Source: a virus. Taken from it: 45,895 nt of DNA. The first letter of the stretch is position 1; each line of letters starts with the position of its first letter. The notes beneath the pieces are model-generated. The model worked only from the letters and a program-made list of their open reading frames with translations, did no database searches and was not told the DNA's origin. Made by a program: the position numbers and the translations under genes. The DNA is taken from positions 1 through 45,895 of the IMG/VR virus record IMGVR_UViG_3300030108_005478; one strand, 5' to 3'. Below, one piece after another: positions 5,452 through 41,036 of the stretch.

Positions 5452-6378
5452 ATGGTAACTTGGTATACTGATCTTCCTAACTTAGCACAAAAACCATATG
5501 GGAGGGCATGGAGCATTCATGATAATGATACAATCAGTGCTAGAGATGAAGCAGTCAAAAAATTTATATCTAATCAATCAACTATATCTGATCAACAAAT
5601 AAAAAGTGAATTTCTTAATTTATATAAACAATGGATGTTTGCTCCACATCCTAATATATCAGGATGGGAAGATTACAATGAATTATGTTTTACCCAAGGT
5701 ACAACTGAGTCTTTTGCTCAGTTTTATCTAAGATTTCGAGAAAACAAACGACTAAGATTGGCCAAAGGAGAATATTTTTATTCTCAAATGATGAAGGGTC
5801 TTTGGTATAAAAATAATTTTGCTTGGCTTCATGAAGATGACATCAAAGCAAATGATGTATTATTAATAAGTGTACCGTTTTCAGACACTGGCGCAGTGCC
5901 AGACAATTTAGAAACTATACTAACAGAATGTGACAAAAATGGTGTGCCAGTAATGCTTGATCTTGCTTATATAAATTTGTCTATAAATCAAAAAATAAAT
6001 CTATCTCATCCATGTATAGAATACGTAGTCTCATCACTTTCTAAAGTATTTCCAGTGGAACTGTATAGAATAGGAATTAGGATGCAGAGGAAAAAATTTG
6101 AAGATCAACTGTATGTGGTTAACGAAGCAGATTACAATTACGTAAACATCATGAGTGCTTTTGTAGGAACTGAACTTATGAAAAAATTTCCTGCAGATTA
6201 TATTTTTAAAAAATATCATCCGAAACAAATTGATATGTGTAAAAAACTTGAAGTTGAGACATCACCATGTGTGTGTTTTGGAATAGATAAAAACAATCAA
6301 TACCAAGTTTACAATCGCGGAACCAAAACAAATCGTCTATGTTTTTCACGCATATGGGACGGAAGAATTAAACTTTGA
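5452..6378 (+). CDS. PLP-dependent aminotransferase-like protein (fold type I)
   Basis: 308 residues, shorter than the usual 380-400 of class I/II aminotransferases. Visible landmarks are FTQGTTESF near residue 80 (phosphate-binding turn), PVMLDLAY with D170 for the pyridine nitrogen, and SSLSKVFPVELYRIG with K198 as the Schiff-base lysine followed by the R-x-G phosphate motif. First gene of a rightward cassette, with a TGATG junction to the amidinotransferase gene. An amine product passed to the amidinotransferase would be a natural logic, but the substrate is unknown. Confidence 0.72.
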   Translation: MVTWYTDLPNLAQKPYGRAWSIHDNDTISARDEAVKKFISNQSTISDQQIKSEFLNLYKQWMFAPHPNISGWEDYNELCFTQGTTESFAQFYLRFRENKRLRLAKGEYFYSQMMKGLWYKNNFAWLHEDDIKANDVLLISVPFSDTGAVPDNLETILTECDKNGVPVMLDLAYINLSINQKINLSHPCIEYVVSSLSKVFPVELYRIGIRMQRKKFEDQLYVVNEADYNYVNIMSAFVGTELMKKFPADYIFKKYHPKQIDMCKKLEVETSPCVCFGIDKNNQYQVYNRGTKTNRLCFSRIWDGRIKL

Positions 6379-7439
6379 TGGACAGTATAGTTTGTAGCCA
6401 TAATGATTGGGATCCTTTAGAAGAGTGTTTTGTTGGAATAGCCACAAATGCACAGTTTCCAAAAATAGATAAAAGCACCCACGCTTTAGTTTTCTCAACA
6501 GAAAAATATGATGACATTAAGGATCTAGAAGGATCCATTGAACAAAGGATTATTGACGAAGCAAATGATGATTTGGATAATCTAGCTACCACTCTTACTA
6601 AATTAGGAGTAAAGGTAAGACGGCCAATGGCACTAGATCACAAGAAAAGTTTCAGCACGCCAGATTGGACTACCACAGGATATCAAACATACTCATGTAG
6701 GGATCTATTGTTGCCTTTGGATAATCTAATAATCGAGAGTGCTTCACCTCACAGAAGTAGGTTTTTTGAAACTACAAGTTATAGAAATTTTTTGTATGAA
6801 GTCATGCTTAATGGTAGCGAATGGATTTGTCCTCCTAGACCACAACTATTAGACAATTTGTATCAATTTGAAAACTTAGATGACCCAACTGTTCTCAATA
6901 AAGAAATTATTTTTGATGCCCCTAATGTTGTTAGATTAGGAAATGATCTATTATATCAAGTAAGTAACACAGGCACAATGCTTGGAGCTCAATGGCTTAA
7001 AAGTATTCTTGAGCCTCGGGGATACAGAATCCATGTAGCAGAAAAGTTCTATTCATTTGCTCATTTTGATAGCACAGTCATTCCATTGCGGCCTGGTTTG
7101 GTCTTATTCAACGGAGCAAGACTAAATCAAAATCACTATCCTGAACTATTTAAAAAATGGGACAAAATATTTTTATCTCCAGATAAAATTATTGATCAAA
7201 CATCTTCACTGCCAAGAAACATTTCAACCACTTCTGCTTATATAGGATTGAATCTTTTAAGTGTAAATGAAAATTTAGTAATATGTGATGTAAATCAAAC
7301 GCATCTGCGTAAAGTCTTAGAAAAACATAAAATAGAAACTATTGGCCTAGAAATGAGACATGCTAAGGTGTTGGCAGGAGGATTTCATTGTGTAACTTTA
7401 GATACTAAAAGAAAAGGTGAAAGACATAATTATTTTTAA
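6378..7439 (+). CDS. amidinotransferase (glycine/inosamine-phosphate amidinotransferase family)
   Basis: 353 residues from the ATG at 6378, which shares one base with the upstream stop. The opening NDWDPLEECFVG is the family signature. The catalytic triad is present: D180 in FDAPNVVRLG, H229 in FAHFDST followed by LRPGLVLFNGARL, and C338 in AGGFHCVTLDTKR. Family members (GATM, StrB, AmtA) move the amidino group of arginine to an amine acceptor, releasing ornithine. Length is close to bacterial StrB (about 350). The acceptor could be an amino acid, amino sugar or polyamine made with the preceding PLP enzyme. Confidence 0.85.
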   Translation: MDSIVCSHNDWDPLEECFVGIATNAQFPKIDKSTHALVFSTEKYDDIKDLEGSIEQRIIDEANDDLDNLATTLTKLGVKVRRPMALDHKKSFSTPDWTTTGYQTYSCRDLLLPLDNLIIESASPHRSRFFETTSYRNFLYEVMLNGSEWICPPRPQLLDNLYQFENLDDPTVLNKEIIFDAPNVVRLGNDLLYQVSNTGTMLGAQWLKSILEPRGYRIHVAEKFYSFAHFDSTVIPLRPGLVLFNGARLNQNHYPELFKKWDKIFLSPDKIIDQTSSLPRNISTTSAYIGLNLLSVNENLVICDVNQTHLRKVLEKHKIETIGLEMRHAKVLAGGFHCVTLDTKRKGERHNYF

Positions 7440-8032
7440 TGTTTATCAAACAAGAAACATCTAACTACATTAATAATTTATTTGACACTTATGTAGATCA
7501 TAAACAATCTAGTGATACAAAACGGATGCACCCTAGTGTGGATGAATTTTCAGATGTTTTACAGGAGATTAACATTAGTCAAGAAGATGTGTCCAAAATA
7601 AGGATAGAAGAAACTTCAAATACTTTCGCAGTTCCAATACATGCGGATTTGCCAAAAGGATCGACAACAACTTTACTTCCATTAAAATTCAAACCATCTG
7701 TGTGGACCATACTATTTCAATCTTTTTACGTGGGTAATAATGCTGGAGGATGTGACTATAGACCTTCTAATAAAAAATATTATGAGGATGATGAATTACA
7801 CACAGACATAGAAAATATTACAAGCATAACTGACAATGATTTTGACCAAGCACAGTATGAAAAATACTTGTCATATATGCCCAAAGAAGATTTGTATGGC
7901 CTTACAATATCAGCAAGTATTGAATGGCAAGAAAACAAAATAATTCAGTTTCCATCTAACCAATTACACAGTGGTAGTTGTTTTTTGGATAGTAAAAGAT
8001 GGCTAAGAATTTTGTCTACTACTTCTTATTAA
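7439..8032 (+). CDS. putative 2OG-Fe(II) oxygenase, cassette partner
   Basis: 197 residues; its ATG shares a base with the TAA of the amidinotransferase gene. H68-x-D70 (VPIHADLPKG) and a distal H177 with nearby Arg187/Arg190 (NQLHSGSCFLDSKRWLRIL) give the His-x-Asp...His...Arg layout of 2-oxoglutarate oxygenases. Its place at the end of the cassette suggests hydroxylation of the guanidino product or of its acceptor. The 3' end overlaps the convergent small membrane-protein gene by 14 nt. Confidence 0.6.
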   Translation: MFIKQETSNYINNLFDTYVDHKQSSDTKRMHPSVDEFSDVLQEINISQEDVSKIRIEETSNTFAVPIHADLPKGSTTTLLPLKFKPSVWTILFQSFYVGNNAGGCDYRPSNKKYYEDDELHTDIENITSITDNDFDQAQYEKYLSYMPKEDLYGLTISASIEWQENKIIQFPSNQLHSGSCFLDSKRWLRILSTTSY

Positions 8033-8207
8033 ACATATTAAAAAAAATAAAGTCAGTCAAAACAATTAAAGTTAATATGCTCAGGCCACTTGGTAACTTG
8101 CCAATTAGTAGTATAGTCATGAACAAAAATACTAACATATTCCTTAATATGGCATTGATGTAAAGCCTAAAATATTGTTTAGGAACAGCATAATCTAACC
8201 AACTATT
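8019..8207 (-). CDS. small membrane protein (62 aa), unknown
   Basis: From the ATG at 8207, which overlaps the stop of the ferredoxin gene by 5 nt, the product has a polar N-terminus ([20 protein letters not shown]) and two hydrophobic segments ([13 protein letters not shown] and [15 protein letters not shown]), predicting a two-helix membrane protein. A longer frame opens at 8237 but would run deep into the ferredoxin gene. No family recognised; coupling to the ferredoxin gene is visible, function is not. Confidence 0.55.
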
Positions 8208-8535
8208 CATTTGTACCTTCATCAAAATATTTGTCAAATTTATTATCTTCGCCTGAATATTTTTCGTAATTCTCTAAAGGTTGTTTTTCTTCTGCTATAT
8301 TTGGCCATATGTTGGAGTATTTTTCATTGAGTGCTTTCCATTTTCCATCTTCATCTAGGGAATCAGGGGTAATTGCTTCTTCAGGACATTCTGGCTCACA
8401 AACCCCACAGTCAATACATTCTTCAGGATTTATTACTAACATATTAGGACCTTCATAAAAACAATCAACAGGGCACACAGCAACACATGTGGTGTGTTTA
8501 CACATAATACACTTGTCATTTACTACATATGTCAC
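8203..8535 (-). CDS. fdxA: 7Fe ferredoxin (3Fe-4S/4Fe-4S), FdxA type
   Basis: 110 residues, the usual length of alphaproteobacterial FdxA. Cysteines are C9-x7-C17-x3-C21 with C50 for one cluster, and C40-x2-C43-x2-C46 with C25 for the other; the stretch [20 protein letters not shown] is characteristic. The acidic C-terminal tail is also typical. It is an electron carrier and in a virus would be an auxiliary metabolic gene, perhaps feeding the radical SAM enzymes or oxygenases in this window. Overlaps the gp62 candidate by 4 nt. Confidence 0.9.
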
Positions 8536-8987: not shown

Positions 8988-9779
8988 TTATAACTTTTGT
9001 TTGACTGTGGAATCAAGTATTTTAAGTTTGGTAATTAGTTTTCTAAATTGATCAGGTAAAAGCATGTTAGGACCATCTGATGGTGCTGAGTTAGGATCAT
9101 TATGGACTTCAAGAAATACTCCTGCTATGCCAAGAGCCACTGCAGATGTACATATAGGATCAACAAATTCTCTGTCACCTCCGGAGGATTGCCCCATACC
9201 TCCAGGTTGTTGTACAGCATGAGTGCCGTCCATTATTACTGGATACCATTCTCGCATGGCGTGTACTCCACGCATATCCACAACAAGATTATTATAACCA
9301 AAAGTAGTGCCTCGCTCTGTAATCATAAAATTTGTGTTAGGTGATTTATTTTTTATATTGTGTACTTCTGAATAGGAAAGAAATTGTCCTTTTTTTACAT
9401 TGACCCATTTACCAGTTTGTCCAGCTGCTAAAATTAAATCTGTTTGTCTACACAAAAACGCAGGGATTTGGATGATATCAACAACTTGAGCGACTGTGTC
9501 AGCTTGATGATGTTCATGTATGTCTGTGATAGTAGGCACAGAAAAACTTTTTGATATTTTTTCAAGTATTTTTAGTCCTTGATCTATACCAACCCCTCTA
9601 GCAGATTTTATAGAAGATCGATTTGCTTTGTCGAAAGATGATTTATACACCCAACGGATCCCTACATCTTCACATATGCCAGCAATTATTTCAGCCATCA
9701 TTATAGCATGTGATTCAGATTCTATCTGACAGGGACCAGCAATAACTTTCAGTGGGGCTTGGTTGTTAAAATTAAGCAT
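8988..9779 (-). CDS. kdsA: 3-deoxy-8-phosphooctulonate synthase (KdsA)
   Basis: 263 residues with the full KdsA fold signature: AGPCQIES at the N-terminus, KSSFDKANRSS, ITDIHE, IPAFLCRQTDL, ITERGTTFGYNNLVVDMR, DGTHAVQQPGG, and EVHNDPNSAPSDGPNML. The enzyme condenses phosphoenolpyruvate with arabinose-5-phosphate to Kdo-8-phosphate, the first committed step to LPS Kdo. The cysteine at residue 17 in GPC suggests the metal-dependent class, since metal-independent enzymes carry Asn there. A complete KdsA inside phage replication genes implies active steering of Kdo supply. Overlaps the upstream gene by 8 nt. Confidence 0.93.
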   Translation of the reverse strand: MLNFNNQAPLKVIAGPCQIESESHAIMMAEIIAGICEDVGIRWVYKSSFDKANRSSIKSARGVGIDQGLKILEKISKSFSVPTITDIHEHHQADTVAQVVDIIQIPAFLCRQTDLILAAGQTGKWVNVKKGQFLSYSEVHNIKNKSPNTNFMITERGTTFGYNNLVVDMRGVHAMREWYPVIMDGTHAVQQPGGMGQSSGGDREFVDPICTSAVALGIAGVFLEVHNDPNSAPSDGPNMLLPDQFRKLITKLKILDSTVKQKL

Positions 9780-11805: not shown

Positions 11806-13221
11806 ATGAAACTAACAATTGCGTCTATACCTTGGAGTGATACAGAATCTCCTTTATTAGCGCCAGCACTATTAAAATCAATGTGTATGAGCAAAGGCAT
11901 AAACACTACCGCTATAGATCTTAATCAAGAAGTGCTGAATTTTGTTAAGACAAAATTACCAAATAGATATTATGAAATACAATCAGCACTGATACAAAAT
12001 CACAATAAATGTAATCCTGATGAAGTAAAGATAATAATTGAATTTATGGCACAGAGGATTTTACAATACAATCCTACACATATAGCTCTATCGCTTTTAA
12101 CGTATGCTAGTCAATTTATTTGTGAATGGCTTTGTTTTTATTTTAGAAGACATCATCCAAATATTAAACTTATTATAGGTGGTCCTGGAGTGTTTAACAC
12201 ATTAGGTACTGAAATGGGATTTGGCGATAGATTACTTGCACAAAAACAAATCGATTATTATATTAAAGGAGATGGTGATGAAACACTGCCTGAGATAGTA
12301 CTTAAAAATCCTGTTACTTTACCAGGAGTCAATAACATAGATTGGGAACAACTAGATAGTTTGAATGATAAACCATATCCTATGTACGATGATTACGACT
12401 GGAGTGTGTACCAAAATCAAAGTATTGGAATAGTTGGCTCAAGGGGTTGTGTGCGTAAGTGTTCTTTCTGCGATATTCATCAGCATTGGAAAAAATTTCA
12501 ATGGCGCACTGCTGAAGACATATTTGCCGAACTAGTATATCAAAATAAATCCACAGGTGTAACAAAGTTTAAATTTCAAGATTCTTTAATAAATGGTAAT
12601 CAAAATGAATTTATGAAACTTATGAGATTGTTAAGTGAATATAATGAACAAAACAAAGATGCCAAAATAGAATGGTCAAGTTTTTTTATTTTTAGGCCTG
12701 AAAGGCAAATGACAGAAAGAGACTGGGAACTAATCAGTCATAGCGGAACTTTTTTAATTGTGGGTGTTGAATCATTGGTAGAAGATGTAAGGATGCACAT
12801 GCGTAAAAAATTTACTAATAAAGACTTAGACTATTGTTTGAGAATGTGCCAAAAATTTAATATATCAGTTGGTATGATGTTAATTGTTGGGTATGTAACA
12901 GACAATGAAGATACAAATTTAGAAACTATTCAATGGTTTGAAAAGAACAAAAAATACGCTGGTAATCCTATAAAATATGTTACATTTGGAGGAGGACTAG
13001 GAATACTACCTGGTACTGAAATTTTTAGAAGGCGTGATGAATTTAACATTATTCTAAATGACGTGAATTTTGATCATCAATGGCAAACAAAGGACGGAAC
13101 TAATACACATGATATTCGAATGAGATGGATGCGTCAACAACAATCTGCTTGTATTAAAGCAGGATTCAATGACAAAGGCAGAGTTGATAATCATTTATTA
13201 ATGGAAATGGAAATGAAGTGA
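11806..13221 (+). CDS. radical SAM enzyme with B12-binding-like N-domain (copy A)
   Basis: 471 residues. Residues 1-190 resemble the Rossmann-like domain of B12-binding radical SAM proteins (LLTYASQF..., IGGPGVF, YYIKGDGDETLPEI) but lack the DxHxxG cobalamin-histidine motif. The radical SAM cluster motif is C215-x3-C219-x2-C222 in SRGCVRKCSFCD, followed by HQHWKKFQW. A second, diverged copy is at 35620-37053 with the same post-cluster motif, and each is followed by a homologous small gene. The reaction is unknown; relatives methylate or rearrange unactivated carbons. It is coupled (GTGA overlap) to its partner gene. Confidence 0.85.
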   Translation: MKLTIASIPWSDTESPLLAPALLKSMCMSKGINTTAIDLNQEVLNFVKTKLPNRYYEIQSALIQNHNKCNPDEVKIIIEFMAQRILQYNPTHIALSLLTYASQFICEWLCFYFRRHHPNIKLIIGGPGVFNTLGTEMGFGDRLLAQKQIDYYIKGDGDETLPEIVLKNPVTLPGVNNIDWEQLDSLNDKPYPMYDDYDWSVYQNQSIGIVGSRGCVRKCSFCDIHQHWKKFQWRTAEDIFAELVYQNKSTGVTKFKFQDSLINGNQNEFMKLMRLLSEYNEQNKDAKIEWSSFFIFRPERQMTERDWELISHSGTFLIVGVESLVEDVRMHMRKKFTNKDLDYCLRMCQKFNISVGMMLIVGYVTDNEDTNLETIQWFEKNKKYAGNPIKYVTFGGGLGILPGTEIFRRRDEFNIILNDVNFDHQWQTKDGTNTHDIRMRWMRQQQSACIKAGFNDKGRVDNHLLMEMEMK

Positions 13222-13643
13222 CAAAAGTTTGCTTTAGCATTTACAGTAGCAATTATCACGGATCTATGTCTGCTAAATTTGTTGCTAATAAAAAGATATT
13301 GCACACTGTAAAAAAATTTAGTGCAGGTATAAACAATGTATCAATTGACGTTGAGTTACCAACAACAATTAATATTATTACTGACGGTAAAGACAACAAC
13401 AATGACACGTTGTTAGATGACAAGGGTAACGTGATTAAGGATAAATTTTTAAGGATTGATGAGATATCTATAGATAAAAAACCAATAGACACAAACGCAC
13501 TTTACAAGATTATTAAAATCCATACTGTAGAAAAACAATTGATATATTCGAATTATGTGGGATTCAACGGCGTCACTTCTATCAATCTAGAGTATTCAGA
13601 TAGCCTGATTGCTCATTTACAGATTAATAGTTTACTTGGTTAA
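13218..13643 (+). CDS. small beta-rich partner of radical SAM copy A
   Basis: 141 residues beginning at GTG (13218), overlapping the radical SAM stop by 4 nt. Strand-rich with no cysteine cluster. Residues 63-102 (DTLLDDKG..IKDKFLRIDEISID...) align without gaps to the partner of copy B at 35217-35633, and both end with a GF/SFNG..SINL strand. The D..D...DK.L.I..I.ID pattern faintly recalls calcium-dependent carbohydrate-binding beta-sandwiches, which is a weak hint only. It may bind the substrate of the radical SAM enzyme. Confidence 0.65.
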   Translation: MTKVCFSIYSSNYHGSMSAKFVANKKILHTVKKFSAGINNVSIDVELPTTINIITDGKDNNNDTLLDDKGNVIKDKFLRIDEISIDKKPIDTNALYKIIKIHTVEKQLIYSNYVGFNGVTSINLEYSDSLIAHLQINSLLG

Positions 13644-35192: not shown

Positions 35193-35220
35193 ATTATATA
35201 GTAAAATAAATTTTTGTCAA
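35193..35220 (-). promoter_or_regulatory. consensus promoter for the HAD/GT operon
   Basis: Leftward -35 TTGACA (35215-35220), 16 nt spacer, -10 TATAAT (35193-35198); both hexamers are perfect. The start codon at 35183 is 9 nt downstream and no Shine-Dalgarno is present. The -35 overlaps the last codon of the upstream partner gene. Confidence 0.7.
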
Positions 35221-35633
35221 TGTTGTTTTGTTGAAGCTAACCATTGAAAAGCCGTGGGAGTAAAATTTATTAAACAAATGCCATTGAATGACCAAAAGTT
35301 TGTTGTAATTTTGCCATGATCCAAACTATGAAAATCAATAAACCTTGAAAGATAATTTTTGTCAACAGAAAATCCATCAATCTGAATGTCTTTTAATATT
35401 ATAAATTTATCTTGAATTATTTTTCCCTTCTCATCTATAATTGTATCCTTTGGATCTTTTCCAAACGTTTCAAATTTACAAATTGACGGAAATTTGACTT
35501 CTATGTCTATGTTATTAATCTGGTCTAATTTGTCAAACGTGTAAGTCTTATTACTGCAGGAAATACAAAGTGACATGCTTTTGTTATTAACACTTTGAGA
35601 TTCAATTACGAATCTTACTTTAGACAAGTTCAT
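35217..35633 (-). CDS. small beta-rich partner of radical SAM copy B
   Basis: 138 residues from the ATG at 35633, which lies in the last codons of the radical SAM gene (14 nt overlap); the frame could open at 35657 but alignment with copy A favours the shorter form. Residues 63-102 (DTIIDEKG..IQDKFIILKDIQIDGF...) match copy A residue for residue without gaps, followed by WSFNGICLINF. Sequence identity outside the core is low. It is always encoded directly after its radical SAM gene in both copies, which suggests a functional complex or substrate carrier. Confidence 0.65.
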   Translation of the reverse strand: MNLSKVRFVIESQSVNNKSMSLCISCSNKTYTFDKLDQINNIDIEVKFPSICKFETFGKDPKDTIIDEKGKIIQDKFIILKDIQIDGFSVDKNYLSRFIDFHSLDHGKITTNFWSFNGICLINFTPTAFQWLASTKQH

Positions 35634-37053
35634 TATAAGCGCCTTGGATTCGTTCAATTATGAAATGATTATCATGAGGATGATATTCCACAAATCCTAA
35701 ATCTGTAAGTGTTTTACTGATTGTTTTATACCATCTTACTCTTGTGGCAGGATCACTATTTTCATTTTTCCAATCTTGATCATTATTCCCGGTCCAATCT
35801 AATCCTAATGAATGAAAATTTTCAGATAATGGCGTATTTTTTAAAATGCCTAATGGGGTACCTACATTAACTCTTATTATATCTTTGTAATTAACATGTT
35901 TTTCCCACCATTTTTGGGCATCAATTATATCCTGTTCTGTTTCAGTAATATATCCCACAATCATTAAAAATAATATTTGTATATCATATTTTTTACACAT
36001 TTGTAAGGCGAATTCTATGTCTTCATTTGTAAATTTTTTACCCATATGAAATCTTGCTTTTTCGCTTAATGATTCAATGCCCGTCACTACACGACTACAT
36101 CCACTTAGTTTTGTAAGTTTCCAATCTTCCTCTGTGAACTGATTCATTGGCTTAATTATAAATTCACTAGTCCAAGTGATAGGATCATCCGCATGTGTTT
36201 TATTGAATTCACTCAGTAAACTTATCATTTTTCTATATTCCTGCATGTTTCCATTTACTAAACTGTCAGTAAAGTGAAAACTTTTATACTCGTGCTTTGT
36301 GTAGAATTCTAACATTTCATTGAATATTTTTTCACCACTTTTCCATGTAAATTTTTTCCAATGCACATGAACATCACAGAAAGTACAGTTTCTTACACAT
36401 CCTCTACTACCTTGAATAGGAATCTCAAATCTTGGATAAAACGAAAAATCATAGTCTTCATAGTCAGGAATAGGCAAATTATTAAGTTCTTCATTTGTAA
36501 GTTGTGGATAAACTTTTTGTTTTATTTGTTCCGTGTTACAATTTTTTTGTAAAAAATCCTCCAATGGCTTTTCGCCGTCCCCTCTAATACATAGATCGAT
36601 TACACTATTTTCTATCAACGAAGGATCAATTATTGATTTTCCCGAAAAGTTTTCATATAATCCAGAACCACCACAGAGTATTTTAATGTTTGCTTTTTTA
36701 CGTTTTAATAACCACGAAATATAATGGGCAGATATTCTGCAGTCATATGTAAACACACTAAGACCAACAACTTGAGGATCGAATTGTAATATTTCATCTG
36801 TTATTTTATCTAGTAAATTTTCTACAAACTTTGCTACTGCTGGATCAAGCACTCCATTTTTAAAAAATTCTAAAACAAGATTGGATTTGGGGTGATTAGT
36901 AATAATGTTAAGATACTTGGCATTCAAATCCAAAGCAACAGATGAATAACCATTTTTAATAGCAATACTTTTGAGAGCACCGGGAGCCATCAATGGTCTG
37001 GTTGTATCCGTAAATGGAATACTTGTAAAAATTACTTGTGCCTTTTTATTCAT
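35620..37053 (-). CDS. radical SAM enzyme with B12-binding-like N-domain (copy B)
   Basis: 477 residues. C219-x3-C223-x2-C226 in SRGCVRNCTFCD, then HVHWKKFTW, as in copy A. N-terminal residues 1-190 hold VVGLSVFTYDCR..., LCGGSGLY, LCIRGDGEKPLEDF, matching copy A's Rossmann-like domain, again without a DxHxxG motif. The copies are full length and clearly diverged, so this is an old duplication or two acquisitions. The reaction is unknown. No Shine-Dalgarno precedes ATG; a GC-rich hairpin lies 11 nt upstream. Confidence 0.85.
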   Translation of the reverse strand: MNKKAQVIFTSIPFTDTTRPLMAPGALKSIAIKNGYSSVALDLNAKYLNIITNHPKSNLVLEFFKNGVLDPAVAKFVENLLDKITDEILQFDPQVVGLSVFTYDCRISAHYISWLLKRKKANIKILCGGSGLYENFSGKSIIDPSLIENSVIDLCIRGDGEKPLEDFLQKNCNTEQIKQKVYPQLTNEELNNLPIPDYEDYDFSFYPRFEIPIQGSRGCVRNCTFCDVHVHWKKFTWKSGEKIFNEMLEFYTKHEYKSFHFTDSLVNGNMQEYRKMISLLSEFNKTHADDPITWTSEFIIKPMNQFTEEDWKLTKLSGCSRVVTGIESLSEKARFHMGKKFTNEDIEFALQMCKKYDIQILFLMIVGYITETEQDIIDAQKWWEKHVNYKDIIRVNVGTPLGILKNTPLSENFHSLGLDWTGNNDQDWKNENSDPATRVRWYKTISKTLTDLGFVEYHPHDNHFIIERIQGAYNELV

Positions 37054-37654: not shown

Positions 37655-37938
37655 TAAATTAAAAACAATTGATATAAAGCAATTGTGTTCATAATGGTAA
37701 ACCATCCTGTCAATACAGTGACCCAGGGTGTTTTTCTTAATATGGCGGCATATAGTCCTGTAGAACTTCCTACAAAATAAAATGGAACAAATATATCTGG
37801 ACGTGGTGATAAAACTGTATAGGTCAAAATAGATGATCCGATTATCACTGAAATGGCAGAGACCATCTCTAAATAAAAAGCAAATGGATCAGATTGGTAT
37901 CCTTCTTGCCAGAATTTAGTTATCCTAGTAAGGAGCAA
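37654..37938 (-). CDS. three-helix membrane protein, unknown (94 aa)
   Basis: Hydrophobic segments around residues 24-44 (LEMVSAISVIIGSSILTYTVL), 49-65 (IFVPFYFVGSSTGLYAA) and 72-92 predict three membrane helices; WQEGYQSDPFAFY near the N-terminus is polar. The only start upstream of the first helix is TTG at 37938, overlapping the ferredoxin stop by 14 nt. I recall similar proteins in marine T4-like phages, function unknown. It may sit near the ferredoxin in a membrane redox role, which is speculation. Confidence 0.55.
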   Translation of the reverse strand: MLLTRITKFWQEGYQSDPFAFYLEMVSAISVIIGSSILTYTVLSPRPDIFVPFYFVGSSTGLYAAILRKTPWVTVLTGWFTIMNTIALYQLFLI

Positions 37939-38239
37939 TAGTAAAAGTCCAATCTTCCATATCTTGGGTGAGTATTATCTGGCAAGCCAGTCTTGAAGTG
38001 GGTCTAAGTTCATGCGCCATGTCTTCTAACAAATGTTTTTCCATTTCTTCCATAGGACTTAGTAAAGAAAATTTTTCCTCATCTATGTACACTTGGCAGG
38101 AAGAACATCCACATGCGCCTCCACAAATTCCAAAACTATCTTGCATGCCTGATTGTGTGATGGCAGTAAGAAGAGAGGTTTGTACATCAGCATCTATTTG
38201 ATGATTGATGCCTAACCGATCAATGACATTAATCTTCAT
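37925..38239 (-). CDS. 2Fe-2S ferredoxin, adrenodoxin/plant-type fold
   Basis: 104 residues from the ATG at 38239 (11 nt overlap with the upstream gene). Cluster ligands are C39-x5-C45-x2-C48 in GICGGACGCSSCQVYI and C86 in SRLACQI, the arrangement of ISC-type or terpredoxin-like ferredoxins; C43 is an extra Cys. The electron partner could be the radical SAM enzymes, oxygenases or a host reductase. A second ferredoxin type (7Fe) is at 8203-8535. Located in the tRNA operon, so expressed together with the tRNAs. Confidence 0.88.
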   Translation of the reverse strand: MKINVIDRLGINHQIDADVQTSLLTAITQSGMQDSFGICGGACGCSSCQVYIDEEKFSLLSPMEEMEKHLLEDMAHELRPTSRLACQIILTQDMEDWTFTIAPY

Positions 38240-38459
38240 CAAGTGGAAAATATTTGTCTAAAACTTCAATTTGATCATGATATCTAGCAACTACCTCGAT
38301 CTCTTTTTCAATTGCTTCTAGCACATCTGGATGTGCTTCGCCACCAACCCCAACAGCGTTTTTAAGGTAGACTTCAACATTCATTGAATGCTTAGAAATG
38401 TGTCCTTCAGCATGTTGACGTATGGCTTGAATCATGTTGTTTCTAGTAAATTTTGCCAT
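38229..38459 (-). CDS. conserved small phage protein (76 aa), unknown
   Basis: Helical, His-rich protein: MAKFTRNNMIQAIRQHAEGHISKH, then a NVEVYLKN turn and EAIEKEIEVVARYHDQIEVLDKYF. I recall relatives with this layout in marine T4-like phages. Start ATG at 38459 is preceded by GGAGAA. Its C-terminal codons overlap the ferredoxin gene. No function known. Confidence 0.6.
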   Translation of the reverse strand: MAKFTRNNMIQAIRQHAEGHISKHSMNVEVYLKNAVGVGGEAHPDVLEAIEKEIEVVARYHDQIEVLDKYFPLDED

Positions 38460-38771: not shown

Positions 38772-39677
38772 TTATACTTGAGAACAATGCATTTTACAAA
38801 CTAAATGTGCTGACTGCCATTGTTTTGTTGTTTCTAAAAAGTCTTTTTGTGTGCTTTTGAGTTGATAATTTTTGTTTGATATGTTGATGGGATCTTTACC
38901 AAAAGGTAGTTTATGCCTAAACCTGTATGTTGCTGTATGACAACATGGAAAAATATTCCCCTCAGCTGTGATATAAATTTCTTGATTTGACATACAGTCT
39001 GGATTCATTTCTTTAGGATCTTTAGCATCTTCATTTAATAACTTTTCCTGTATATCATATCTGTGCATTTTAATGAAATTATCAGAAGGCTTAAAATTAA
39101 TCGAGTCATCTAGCCATCTATGGCTTTTTAAAAGTTTGAATTTGTCAACTCCTAGGGTTTTACTTAATGTTTTTGCCTCATCTATTTGATGTTGATTAAA
39201 GTTAAAGGGTATAAATTGCCATACACATTTTGCTTTGCTTTTAACAATGGATTTGACACCAGTCATAACTTGATTCCATTTTTGGTTAATTCTATAAATT
39301 TTACTTGTATCTTCCAAACCATCTATTCCGAAAATAACTTCGTCTTGTTCTGTCAGTATATCACCTATTTGTATCCAAAATTTTTCAGTTTTTGCTGATC
39401 CGTTTGTGCTTATAAACAACATCATATCTAACGACTTTAACATTTCCACAAGTTTGATAATATTAGGATGATATATAGGATCACCATTTGATCCACACAA
39501 CCAAATTTTTTGTTTACGGAAATTATTGTGTTTAAAAAATTCATACAAATGATCAACATTTATATCACTTATAATTTGTTTGCCAAACGTTTTTTTGAAC
39601 CATGTCCTATCACAACCAGGACATTCCAACGTGCATCTTGTTGTTGGTTCTATGTGCCAAGATATAGGATTATACAT
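38772..39677 (-). CDS. radical SAM enzyme with SPASM-like C-terminus
   Basis: 301 residues. C15-x3-C19-x2-C22 in TRCTLECPGCDRTWFK, WLCGSNGDPIYHPNI and ISTNGSAKT are radical SAM landmarks; C-terminal cysteines in PDCMSNQEIYITAEGNIFPCC and CKMHC resemble a SPASM/twitch auxiliary cluster. Such enzymes modify peptides or build cofactors. It is separate from the two B12-type copies. Its gene follows the purine permease with a hairpin between, and no companion peptide is visible nearby. Confidence 0.78.
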   Translation of the reverse strand: MYNPISWHIEPTTRCTLECPGCDRTWFKKTFGKQIISDINVDHLYEFFKHNNFRKQKIWLCGSNGDPIYHPNIIKLVEMLKSLDMMLFISTNGSAKTEKFWIQIGDILTEQDEVIFGIDGLEDTSKIYRINQKWNQVMTGVKSIVKSKAKCVWQFIPFNFNQHQIDEAKTLSKTLGVDKFKLLKSHRWLDDSINFKPSDNFIKMHRYDIQEKLLNEDAKDPKEMNPDCMSNQEIYITAEGNIFPCCHTATYRFRHKLPFGKDPINISNKNYQLKSTQKDFLETTKQWQSAHLVCKMHCSQV

Positions 39678-39743: not shown

Positions 39744-41036
39744 TTAGGCAGCTACGAAGTAAAGAATACTTACTGCCGCAATGGCTAATGAGCCACCATT
39801 TAAGTCTGCTGTTTTGCCGCTAAGTGCTTTGATCAACACGTAAGCAATAAAGCCAAGTGCGATACCATATGCGATTGAGAATGTCAATGGCATTATAATG
39901 GCCGCAAGTACTGCCGGAGCATATTCTGATACATCTTCCCAGTCAATATCTTTAAGATTTCGTAGGAAATATGTAGCAATAAACACCAAAGCAGGACCAG
40001 TAGCAAAAGCGGGAATACTTTGTGCCAATGGAGCAAACACAAGACATGCTAAAAACAATACCGCTACTGTAACAGCAGTCAGTCCTGTTTTTCCGCCTTC
40101 TTTTATGCCTGCACCTGACTCAATGTATGATGTAGTGTTAGATGTTCCTAACAAGGCTCCTACAGTTGTAGCAGTTGAATCAGCTAACAAGGCCTTATCA
40201 ATGCCTTGAACTTCACCTTTCTTATCAACTTTTCCTGTAAGATTGGCCACTGAAGTCAATGTTCCTGCTGTGTCAAAAAAGTCAACGAACAAGAAAGCAA
40301 ACGCAGTGCCTATAAAGCCAGCTGTTGCTAACAATGAAAAGTCTAGTGAGAAAGCATGTGCTGGTGAAGGAACAGCTCCTACAACACCTGATATGTCTGC
40401 GACACCAAATATCCAAGCAAGTATACTCACTGCTAGTATTCCTATGATAATAGCACCTGGTATCTGCCGTTTGTCAAGAATTGCCATAATGGCAAATCCT
40501 AAACCAGCCAACAACACAGGTAATGATGAAACATCACCTAGACCCACAAGTGTGGCAGGATTGTCAACAACAATACCGGCATTTTTAAATCCTATAATGG
40601 CTAAAAACAAACCAATGCCTGCTCCAATGCCAAGTTTCATTGAACGTGGAATGGAATTTATAATATAGCGTCTTGCTGGCGTTACTGATAGTAACAAGAA
40701 CACAAGTCCTGCTACAAATACAGCTGCCAATGCTTGACTGTATGTGTATCCCATGCCAAAAATCACACCAAATGTAAAAAACGCATTCAGTCCCATTCCT
40801 GGTGCGAGAGCTACGGGCCATTTTGCCCATATTCCCATTATTAATGTACCTATCACAGCGGCAATTATTGTCGCAGTAAACACAGCACCAAATGCCATGC
40901 CAGTACCTTCAGTTGAAAGTATAGCTGGATTGACCACAGTGATGTATGCCATCGTAAGGAACGTTGCCACACCAGCCATGATTTCCGTTTTAACAGTTGT
41001 GCCGGCCTTTGATAGGCCAAACAGTTTTTCTAACAT
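39744..41036 (-). CDS. NCS2-family purine (guanine/hypoxanthine-type) permease
   Basis: 430 residues, full-length AzgA/PbuG-like. N-terminal EIMAGVATFLTMAYITVVNP is the family start; ALAPGMGLNAFFTF is the substrate-binding turn, SIPRSMKLGIGAGIGLFLAIIGFKNAG follows, then LFVDFFDTAGTLTSVANLTG, STTTVGALLGTS-like residues and about 12 helices. It imports purine bases with protons. In a phage it would feed nucleotide synthesis for its own replication. Clear Shine-Dalgarno AGAGGAGAT ahead of the ATG. A complete permease rather than a fragment is unusual in phage. Confidence 0.9.
   Translation of the reverse strand: MLEKLFGLSKAGTTVKTEIMAGVATFLTMAYITVVNPAILSTEGTGMAFGAVFTATIIAAVIGTLIMGIWAKWPVALAPGMGLNAFFTFGVIFGMGYTYSQALAAVFVAGLVFLLLSVTPARRYIINSIPRSMKLGIGAGIGLFLAIIGFKNAGIVVDNPATLVGLGDVSSLPVLLAGLGFAIMAILDKRQIPGAIIIGILAVSILAWIFGVADISGVVGAVPSPAHAFSLDFSLLATAGFIGTAFAFLFVDFFDTAGTLTSVANLTGKVDKKGEVQGIDKALLADSTATTVGALLGTSNTTSYIESGAGIKEGGKTGLTAVTVAVLFLACLVFAPLAQSIPAFATGPALVFIATYFLRNLKDIDWEDVSEYAPAVLAAIIMPLTFSIAYGIALGFIAYVLIKALSGKTADLNGGSLAIAAVSILYFVAA

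Follow-up and report, generated by a model that had tools for sequence, protein, structure and literature searches.

A radical SAM enzyme and a small protein with a predicted CBM60 fold form a co-inherited gene pair in uncultured phages

Why would a phage carry, at two separate loci, a gene for an oxygen-sensitive radical SAM enzyme that overlaps a gene for a small beta-rich protein, and what might the small protein do for the enzyme? The window, by which we mean the whole stretch of DNA analysed here, is a complete 45,895-base virus record from a T4-like phage, with genes for a UvsW-type helicase, UvsX, UvsY and a gp32-like single-strand binding protein, and with five tRNAs. At the first locus, an enzyme of 471 aa (copy A; 11806-13221, + strand) is followed by a partner of 141 aa (partner A; 13218-13643, +), whose GTG start codon lies inside the enzyme gene in a 4-nt overlap (GTGA). 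At the second, an enzyme of 477 aa with the same architecture (copy B; 35620-37053, - strand) precedes a partner of 138 aa (partner B; 35217-35633, -) that matches the family HMM, starts from an internal ATG at 35633 and overlaps the enzyme gene by 14 nt; an alternative TTG start at 35657 would give 146 aa. Open reading frames, coordinates and BLASTP thus agree with the first-pass annotation, which had described two loci on opposite strands, each with a radical SAM gene and then an overlapping small gene.

The same annotation had called the pair duplicated and had aligned the two partners without gaps over residues 63-102. The likeness is real but extends past these residues and lies far above chance, with 33% identity over 124 aa and two small gaps (BLASTP, E=8e-20); for the enzymes the figure is 35% over 475 aa (E=1e-98). 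A recent duplication within this genome is ruled out by the tree, in which the copies are not each other's nearest kin: copy A groups with L003 and L005 (57-58% identity) and copy B with L008 and L009. Copies A and B are old, separately inherited lineages.

Among 50,697 isolate phage records, we found no relatives of the copy A enzyme or of partner B, and the arrangement of enzyme plus lectin-like partner was absent from these records as searched. Nucleotide patterns searched directly, whether for the enzyme alone or for the two-sequence partner alignment, gave no match; the relatives were recovered with broader alignment-based patterns. The enzyme alignment, used for a profile-type scan of IMG/VR, returned 80 loci, and a scan of prokaryote genome contigs returned 34 loci with an enzyme match, two of which also carried the partner and are probably phage contigs inside MAGs. 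The pair is widespread among uncultured phage contigs. Partner families were sought with an iterative HMM, and most records are fragments.

The partner occurred at the 3' end of the enzyme gene in 39 of the 65 rows of the enzyme tree, in a pattern that takes three gain/loss changes, as compared with a mean of 20.6 after shuffling; the 24-row group holding both window copies has the partner in 21 rows and lacks it in three. When the partner alignment alone served as bait, it returned 15 new contigs, in which a B12-type radical SAM enzyme adjoins the partner in 11, the contig ends in two and another enzyme adjoins in two, so that the enzyme stands beside the partner in 11 of 13 informative contigs. 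Profile searches with a tabulation of adjacency, which the first-pass annotation had proposed as a check, gave, after clustering at 70% identity, a B12-type radical SAM neighbour for 38 of 47 partner clusters and a partner for 34 of 83 enzyme clusters, with 47 of the 83, many of them distant, lacking it. Every non-redundant pair (38/38) has a possible start codon for the partner within the enzyme gene, the nearest plausible start falling 1-62 nt before the end of that gene; L055 also has a partner start 16 nt after it. Pairwise distances of enzymes and partners are correlated (Mantel/mirror-tree r 0.84, reached in 0 of 2,000 shuffles) at mean identities across pairs of 36% for the enzyme and 23% for the partner, a correlation that stems partly from shared ancestry and so shows co-inheritance rather than contact.

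We regard the two-gene unit as virtually certain. The annotation's claim of a co-inherited enzyme-partner unit is upheld by these adjacency counts, the overlaps and the distance correlation, whereas its word "obligate" fails in both directions: enzymes without partners are common, and some partner homologues stand beside other enzymes. It had counted frequent absence of the partner among enzyme relatives against the unit, and absence is indeed frequent, yet it takes only the three changes on the tree. Two Bdellovibrionia MAGs (L084 and L085) carry, on bacterial contigs, tandem pairs of the window-type radical SAM family with no partner.

The AF2 model of the copy A enzyme (pLDDT 90.9) has an N-terminal B12-type Rossmann domain (residues ~1-165), a radical SAM core and a short C-terminal helical part. 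Pfam Radical_SAM (PF04055) lies above its cut-off in both copies (1.2e-13 in A, 6e-15 in B), and B12-binding lies under it in both (0.0035 and 3.2e-5). Among NCBIfam profiles, copy A matches the PhpK family (1.5e-26) and the ladderane B12 family (1.2e-21), and the best match of copy B is the RiPP maturation C-methyltransferase rSAM_ocin_1 (4e-26), all short of the curated cut-offs (92.9 vs 600, 83.7 vs 360 and 91.7 vs 281.85 bits, respectively); the AprD4 profile matches copy B only, at 3e-4. Foldseek matched the enzyme model to TsrM, MgmA, AprD4, CysS, OxsB and TokK, with 10-16% identity to the class-1 B12 enzymes and MgmA in structural alignments.

The 4Fe-4S site (CxxxCxxC) of copy A falls in SRGCVRKCSFCD (residues 212-223; 12439-12474, +), in which C215, C219, C222 and D223 are invariant in 44 of 44 aligned relatives; its counterpart in copy B, by sequence and by alignment with copy A, is SRGCVRNCTFCD (residues 216-227; 36373-36408, -). 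The SRGCVRxCxFCD and HxHWKKF motifs reported earlier are present in both copies, and DxHxxG, the MetH-type motif of a His-on B12 domain, is absent from both, as had also been reported. With PF04055, the invariant cysteines and a TIM-barrel-type core, the enzyme is a member of the radical SAM superfamily, below all the curated family cut-offs tested. The class-1 arrangement, a Rossmann domain of the cobalamin type ahead of the radical SAM domain, is seen in the AF2 model and its Foldseek matches and in a GG motif of the Rossmann domain kept in 44 of 44 relatives.

The missing DxHxxG motif is not evidence against cobalamin, because the solved class-1 enzymes bind it base-off, with no histidine ligand and with the cobalt lying over a residue from the loop that follows strand 3; OxsB, TsrM and TokK bind B12 with no such ligand (PMC13331322). 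Aligned with OxsB and CysS, the corresponding loop of copy A is SLLTY (codons 96-100; 12091-12105, +). Profile alignment places OxsB Asn186 at position 98, which is F or L in 44/44 relatives, and the CysS loop Trp at position 100, which is Tyr in 28/44 and Phe in 11/44 (Y/F in 39/44) and is Trp in one distant partner-bearing clade; S96 is kept in 43/44. These residues predict a hydrophobic lower face for the cobalt and are compatible with cobalamin binding. A B12-like domain with a candidate site free of histidine, which the first reading had proposed to test for, fits both the fold and the loop residues, while the use of cobalamin itself is read from the fold. AprD4, which is not known to use B12, is a structural neighbour, so the fold alone does not prove use of the cofactor.

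Neither Pfam nor PHROGs holds a family for the partner, and searching the PDB with a profile of the partner alignment yielded chance-level matches only. The AF2 model of partner A, built on a 37-sequence alignment, reached pLDDT 94 and pTM 0.86, and Foldseek returned two PDB matches below E=1e-3, 2xhh (4.4e-5) and 2xfd (1.1e-4), both of vCBM60, a Ca2+-dependent carbohydrate-binding module, with TMt of 0.67-0.72. The next-best match was two orders of magnitude weaker (1.3e-2), with an rmsd near 10 A. CBM60 domains of bacterial genomes align with the partner colinearly and end to end in profile-profile comparison (P 1-3e-4, at a probability of only 28-41%), such that the CBM60 ND...DRN motif falls on GKN/D...DK of the partner. 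The Pfam CBM60 gathering score (PF16841) is reached by neither partner A nor partner B, and one family member, the best of 37, has a weak direct CBM60 match (E 0.0088). At the level of the model, the partners make up a new family whose fold is that of CBM60.

CBM60 modules bind sugars via Ca2+ (PMC4444583). In partner A, the equivalent motif is GKD...DT...DK (residues 57-76; 13386-13445, +), with K58 in 37/37, N/D59 in 28/37, D63 in 27/37 and D75 in 35/37 sequences, ligand positions being assigned by alignment only; calcium binding cannot be assumed, since CBM60 has Asn at the place of Lys58. Also kept, ahead of the last strand, is N117-G118 (13566-13571, +; N117 in 35/37), and NG occurs here in some CBM60 sequences too. 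The protein opens directly with a strand and no signal peptide is evident, so it is likely cytoplasmic.

We rejected several other identities for the partner. A QueE-like assignment (NCBIfam 0.0011, partner A) founders on the lack of a radical SAM motif and on a different fold, and a C2 domain (Foldseek ~1e-2) on TM scores of 0.25-0.34 and an rmsd near 10 A. The partner is not an abundant phage beta-sandwich either, as phage records up to 353 kb hold just 0-3 copies. The annotation had allowed that a generic beta-sandwich with no co-occurrence might explain the partner alignment, and on both counts the outcome was the opposite: the fold is specifically CBM60-like and the pair co-occurs. Nor does the partner have the leader and core of a RiPP precursor peptide, being one globular domain.

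Homologues of the partner also adjoin PLP aminotransferase-like, SPASM radical SAM and 2OG-oxygenase-like genes, and related partners attached to other phage enzymes make the partner appear to behave as a reusable adaptor. CBM60-like homologues adjoin a PLP aminotransferase-like gene at L181:1618-3197, L030:9165-10377 and L025:9448-10762, the order in L181 being partner-PLP-partner-PLP. Two further homologues, L137:1507-1950 (-) and L138:1501-1956 (-), occupy a region of structural genes, flanked on one side by what looks like a small structural protein and on the other by a nucleotidyltransferase-like gene, and are possibly a virion or ancestral version. A second type of small partner (Q; ~137 aa, motif WPWxIKPxxRxxGHLV) was seen at L155:748-1152 and L156:550-963, in two phage records that also have a CBM60-like pair; there it overlaps a distant paralogue of the B12-type radical SAM enzyme at the 5' end. 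A search for type Q found it only in G001 and G002.

Joint inheritance over so great a distance suggests a role for the small protein in delivering substrate to the enzyme. Building on the co-inheritance, the overlap geometry, the cluster motif and the two folds (at model level), which are demonstrated, we tentatively favour, at a little under an even chance, a class-1 B12 radical SAM enzyme to which a cytoplasmic adaptor with the CBM60 fold presents a substrate that bears a sugar. The two proteins would be made together by overlapping translation and act as one complex. The [4Fe-4S] cluster of the enzyme would cleave SAM, and the N-terminal Rossmann domain would most likely hold base-off, His-off cobalamin over an aromatic or hydrophobic residue, the most likely reaction being methylation of an unactivated carbon. 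The partner, a putative divergent and free-standing relative of CBM60, would recognise a sugar-containing phage or host intermediate and then present it to the enzyme. We favour the adaptor because partner homologues stand beside several types of enzyme, for which a shared ligand is the simplest common denominator, and the fold says sugar. The adaptor reading is weakened by the enzyme relatives that lack a partner, three of them inside the window clade, by a CBM60 calcium site that is not clearly kept (Lys58; N/D59) together with the low profile probability, and by pairs that do not generally lie near glycan genes. Its B12 part is weakened by its derivation from the fold and by the structural neighbour AprD4, which is not known to use B12.

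The main rival makes the partner a protein substrate, with the enzyme C-methylating or otherwise modifying an invariant residue such as Lys58 or Asn117, in the manner of MgmA and methyl-coenzyme M reductase (MCR) or of RiPP methyltransferases. In RiPP and PTM systems, an enzyme and its substrate are typically encoded side by side with coupled translation; here these features accompany the rSAM_ocin_1 match of copy B (4e-26), nearby clusters of SPASM radical SAM and 2OG oxygenase-like genes, an invariant Lys58 (37/37), and the presence of MgmA, which modifies MCR (PMC11796369), among the closest solved folds. We nevertheless hold this unlikely, if a serious contender, since the partner is a wholly folded domain (pLDDT 94) with no leader or tail, PLP aminotransferase-like neighbours better fit a small-molecule or sugar substrate, and Lys58 is equally invariant where no B12 radical SAM enzyme abuts (L025, L029/L030 and L053; it is seen too in L137 and L138), so that its conservation is not specific to the enzyme. 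It is also rather improbable that the partner is a structural or regulatory subunit with no sugar role, acting in stability, electron transfer or active-site capping and keeping CBM60 as a scaffold only, with Lys58 in place of calcium. The replacement of the ND-motif Asn by Lys58 with acidic ligand positions partly kept, the many enzyme relatives that work without a partner, and the apparently unrelated partner Q at the 5' end of two distant paralogues would all suit such a subunit; a family that adjoins other classes of enzyme is better explained by a shared ligand than by a fold-specific stabiliser.

A further alternative, overlapping with the adaptor reading, concerns the cofactor: the Rossmann domain would be degenerate and the enzyme B12-independent, as in AprD4, carrying out radical dehydration, epimerisation or deoxygenation of a sugar held by the partner. 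AprD4 bound to an aminoglycoside, its substrate, ranks among the top fold matches (TM 0.64-0.66) and is similar in length, and the absence of DxHxxG and the sub-cut-off Pfam B12-binding scores of both copies point the same way. The profiles, however, favour B12 families by many orders (1.5e-26, 1.2e-21 and 4e-26 vs 3e-4 for AprD4), and the GG motif and hydrophobic lower-face residues are conserved, which makes this account doubtful. Least probable by far is that the two genes are functionally unconnected and merely travel side by side on a mobile phage cassette. Both genes do occupy variable parts of T4-like genomes, and trees become correlated through co-inheritance alone, but the overlap persists at identities of ~36% for the enzyme and 23% for the partner, at different places in the genome and with either bait.

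The enzyme resembles TsrM, OxsB, TokK, CysS and MgmA in its N-terminal Rossmann domain, its CxxxCxxC core and its lack of a His ligand motif, and differs from them in being paired with a small beta-sandwich protein, in reaching no equivalog cut-off and in coming mainly from uncultured phage contigs. AprD4, a top-ten fold match that acts on a sugar-containing substrate, is similar in size, with a sequence match that is weak and limited to copy B; it is a radical diol dehydratase that works with the reductase AprD3 rather than with a lectin-like protein. CBM60 (vCBM60, 2XFD/2XHH) is the only significant solved fold for the partner and has colinear motifs; in the genomes examined, CBM60 modules lie within long proteins (open frames of 299-961 aa), in contrast to the free-standing phage partner with its invariant Lys for Asn and, in the window copies, no Pfam CBM60 assignment. 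RiPP and PTM systems (rSAM_ocin_1, MgmA-MCR) share an enzyme adjoining a small co-translated protein, which in the phage is a folded CBM60-like domain rather than a leader peptide plus core. In the literature on phage radical SAM enzymes and on CBM60, we found no description of this combination. Radical SAM cassettes occur in the glycosyltransferase-rich host-recognition region of pelagimyophages (PMC7029224), and radical SAM genes are enriched in Tasman Sea phages (PMC7150976). With this pair, viruses join a demanding radical reaction to a lectin-like protein; it suggests that modified glycans or proteins overlooked by current annotation, PHROGs and Pfam included, are made by phages that infect aquatic bacteria. 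The pair is a defined, expressible two-gene unit, for which a complex, bound cobalamin, a sugar ligand and partner-dependent activity are predicted.

The annotation had further proposed that the two pairs bracket a glycan gene block and hence serve its pathway. The block is real in the window, where sugar-nucleotide and glycosyltransferase genes lie between the copies, and a comparable case is seen only in L157 (the record of L008), with two pairs and, by eye, glycosyltransferase-like genes between them. As a general rule bracketing is rejected, and the link to the pathway that had been drawn from it is not supported: GT8 genes occur in 5 of 31 records, and the pairs of other T4-like genomes lie at the primase-helicase junction, beside gp46/gp47 or beside UvsW. 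A wider and unlikely proposal, conceivable nonetheless, is that free-standing CBM60-fold proteins of uncultured T4-like phages are interchangeable sugar adaptors that would plug B12 and SPASM radical SAM, 2OG oxygenase-like and PLP aminotransferase-like enzymes into one glycan-tailoring pathway, installing C-branched or unusual sugars; we know of no such interchangeable adaptor system.

A 2OG-oxygenase-like gene is a recurrent third neighbour of the pairs (by eye; no Pfam match). Near copy A, the window encodes KDO-8-phosphate synthase, a lipopolysaccharide precursor enzyme (8988-9779, -; above the NCBIfam cut-off). A run of three genes in the window at 5452-8032 (+) comprises a PLP aminotransferase-like protein (PF00155), a 354-aa protein with the look, by eye, of an amidinotransferase (only match phrog_25854, of unknown function) and a 2OG-oxygenase-like protein (by eye). 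A 4Fe-4S ferredoxin (8203-8535, -), with a similar protein beside the pair in L083, and a 2Fe-2S ferredoxin (37925-38242, -) might donate electrons to the radical SAM enzymes. A third radical SAM gene, of the SPASM type, lies 1.7 kb from copy B (38772-39677, -); it matches tungsten cofactor maturase (1.6e-16) and viperin-like (2.5e-8) NCBIfam profiles, both below cut-off, and 25 of the examined loci contain a member of its family. The gene at 39744-41036 (-) is a full-length match to Xan_ur_permease (PF00860, 3.4e-52); its PHROG, phrog_27398 (1e-134), bears the label "tail protein", an apparent misannotation of a phage-encoded purine or pyrimidine permease.
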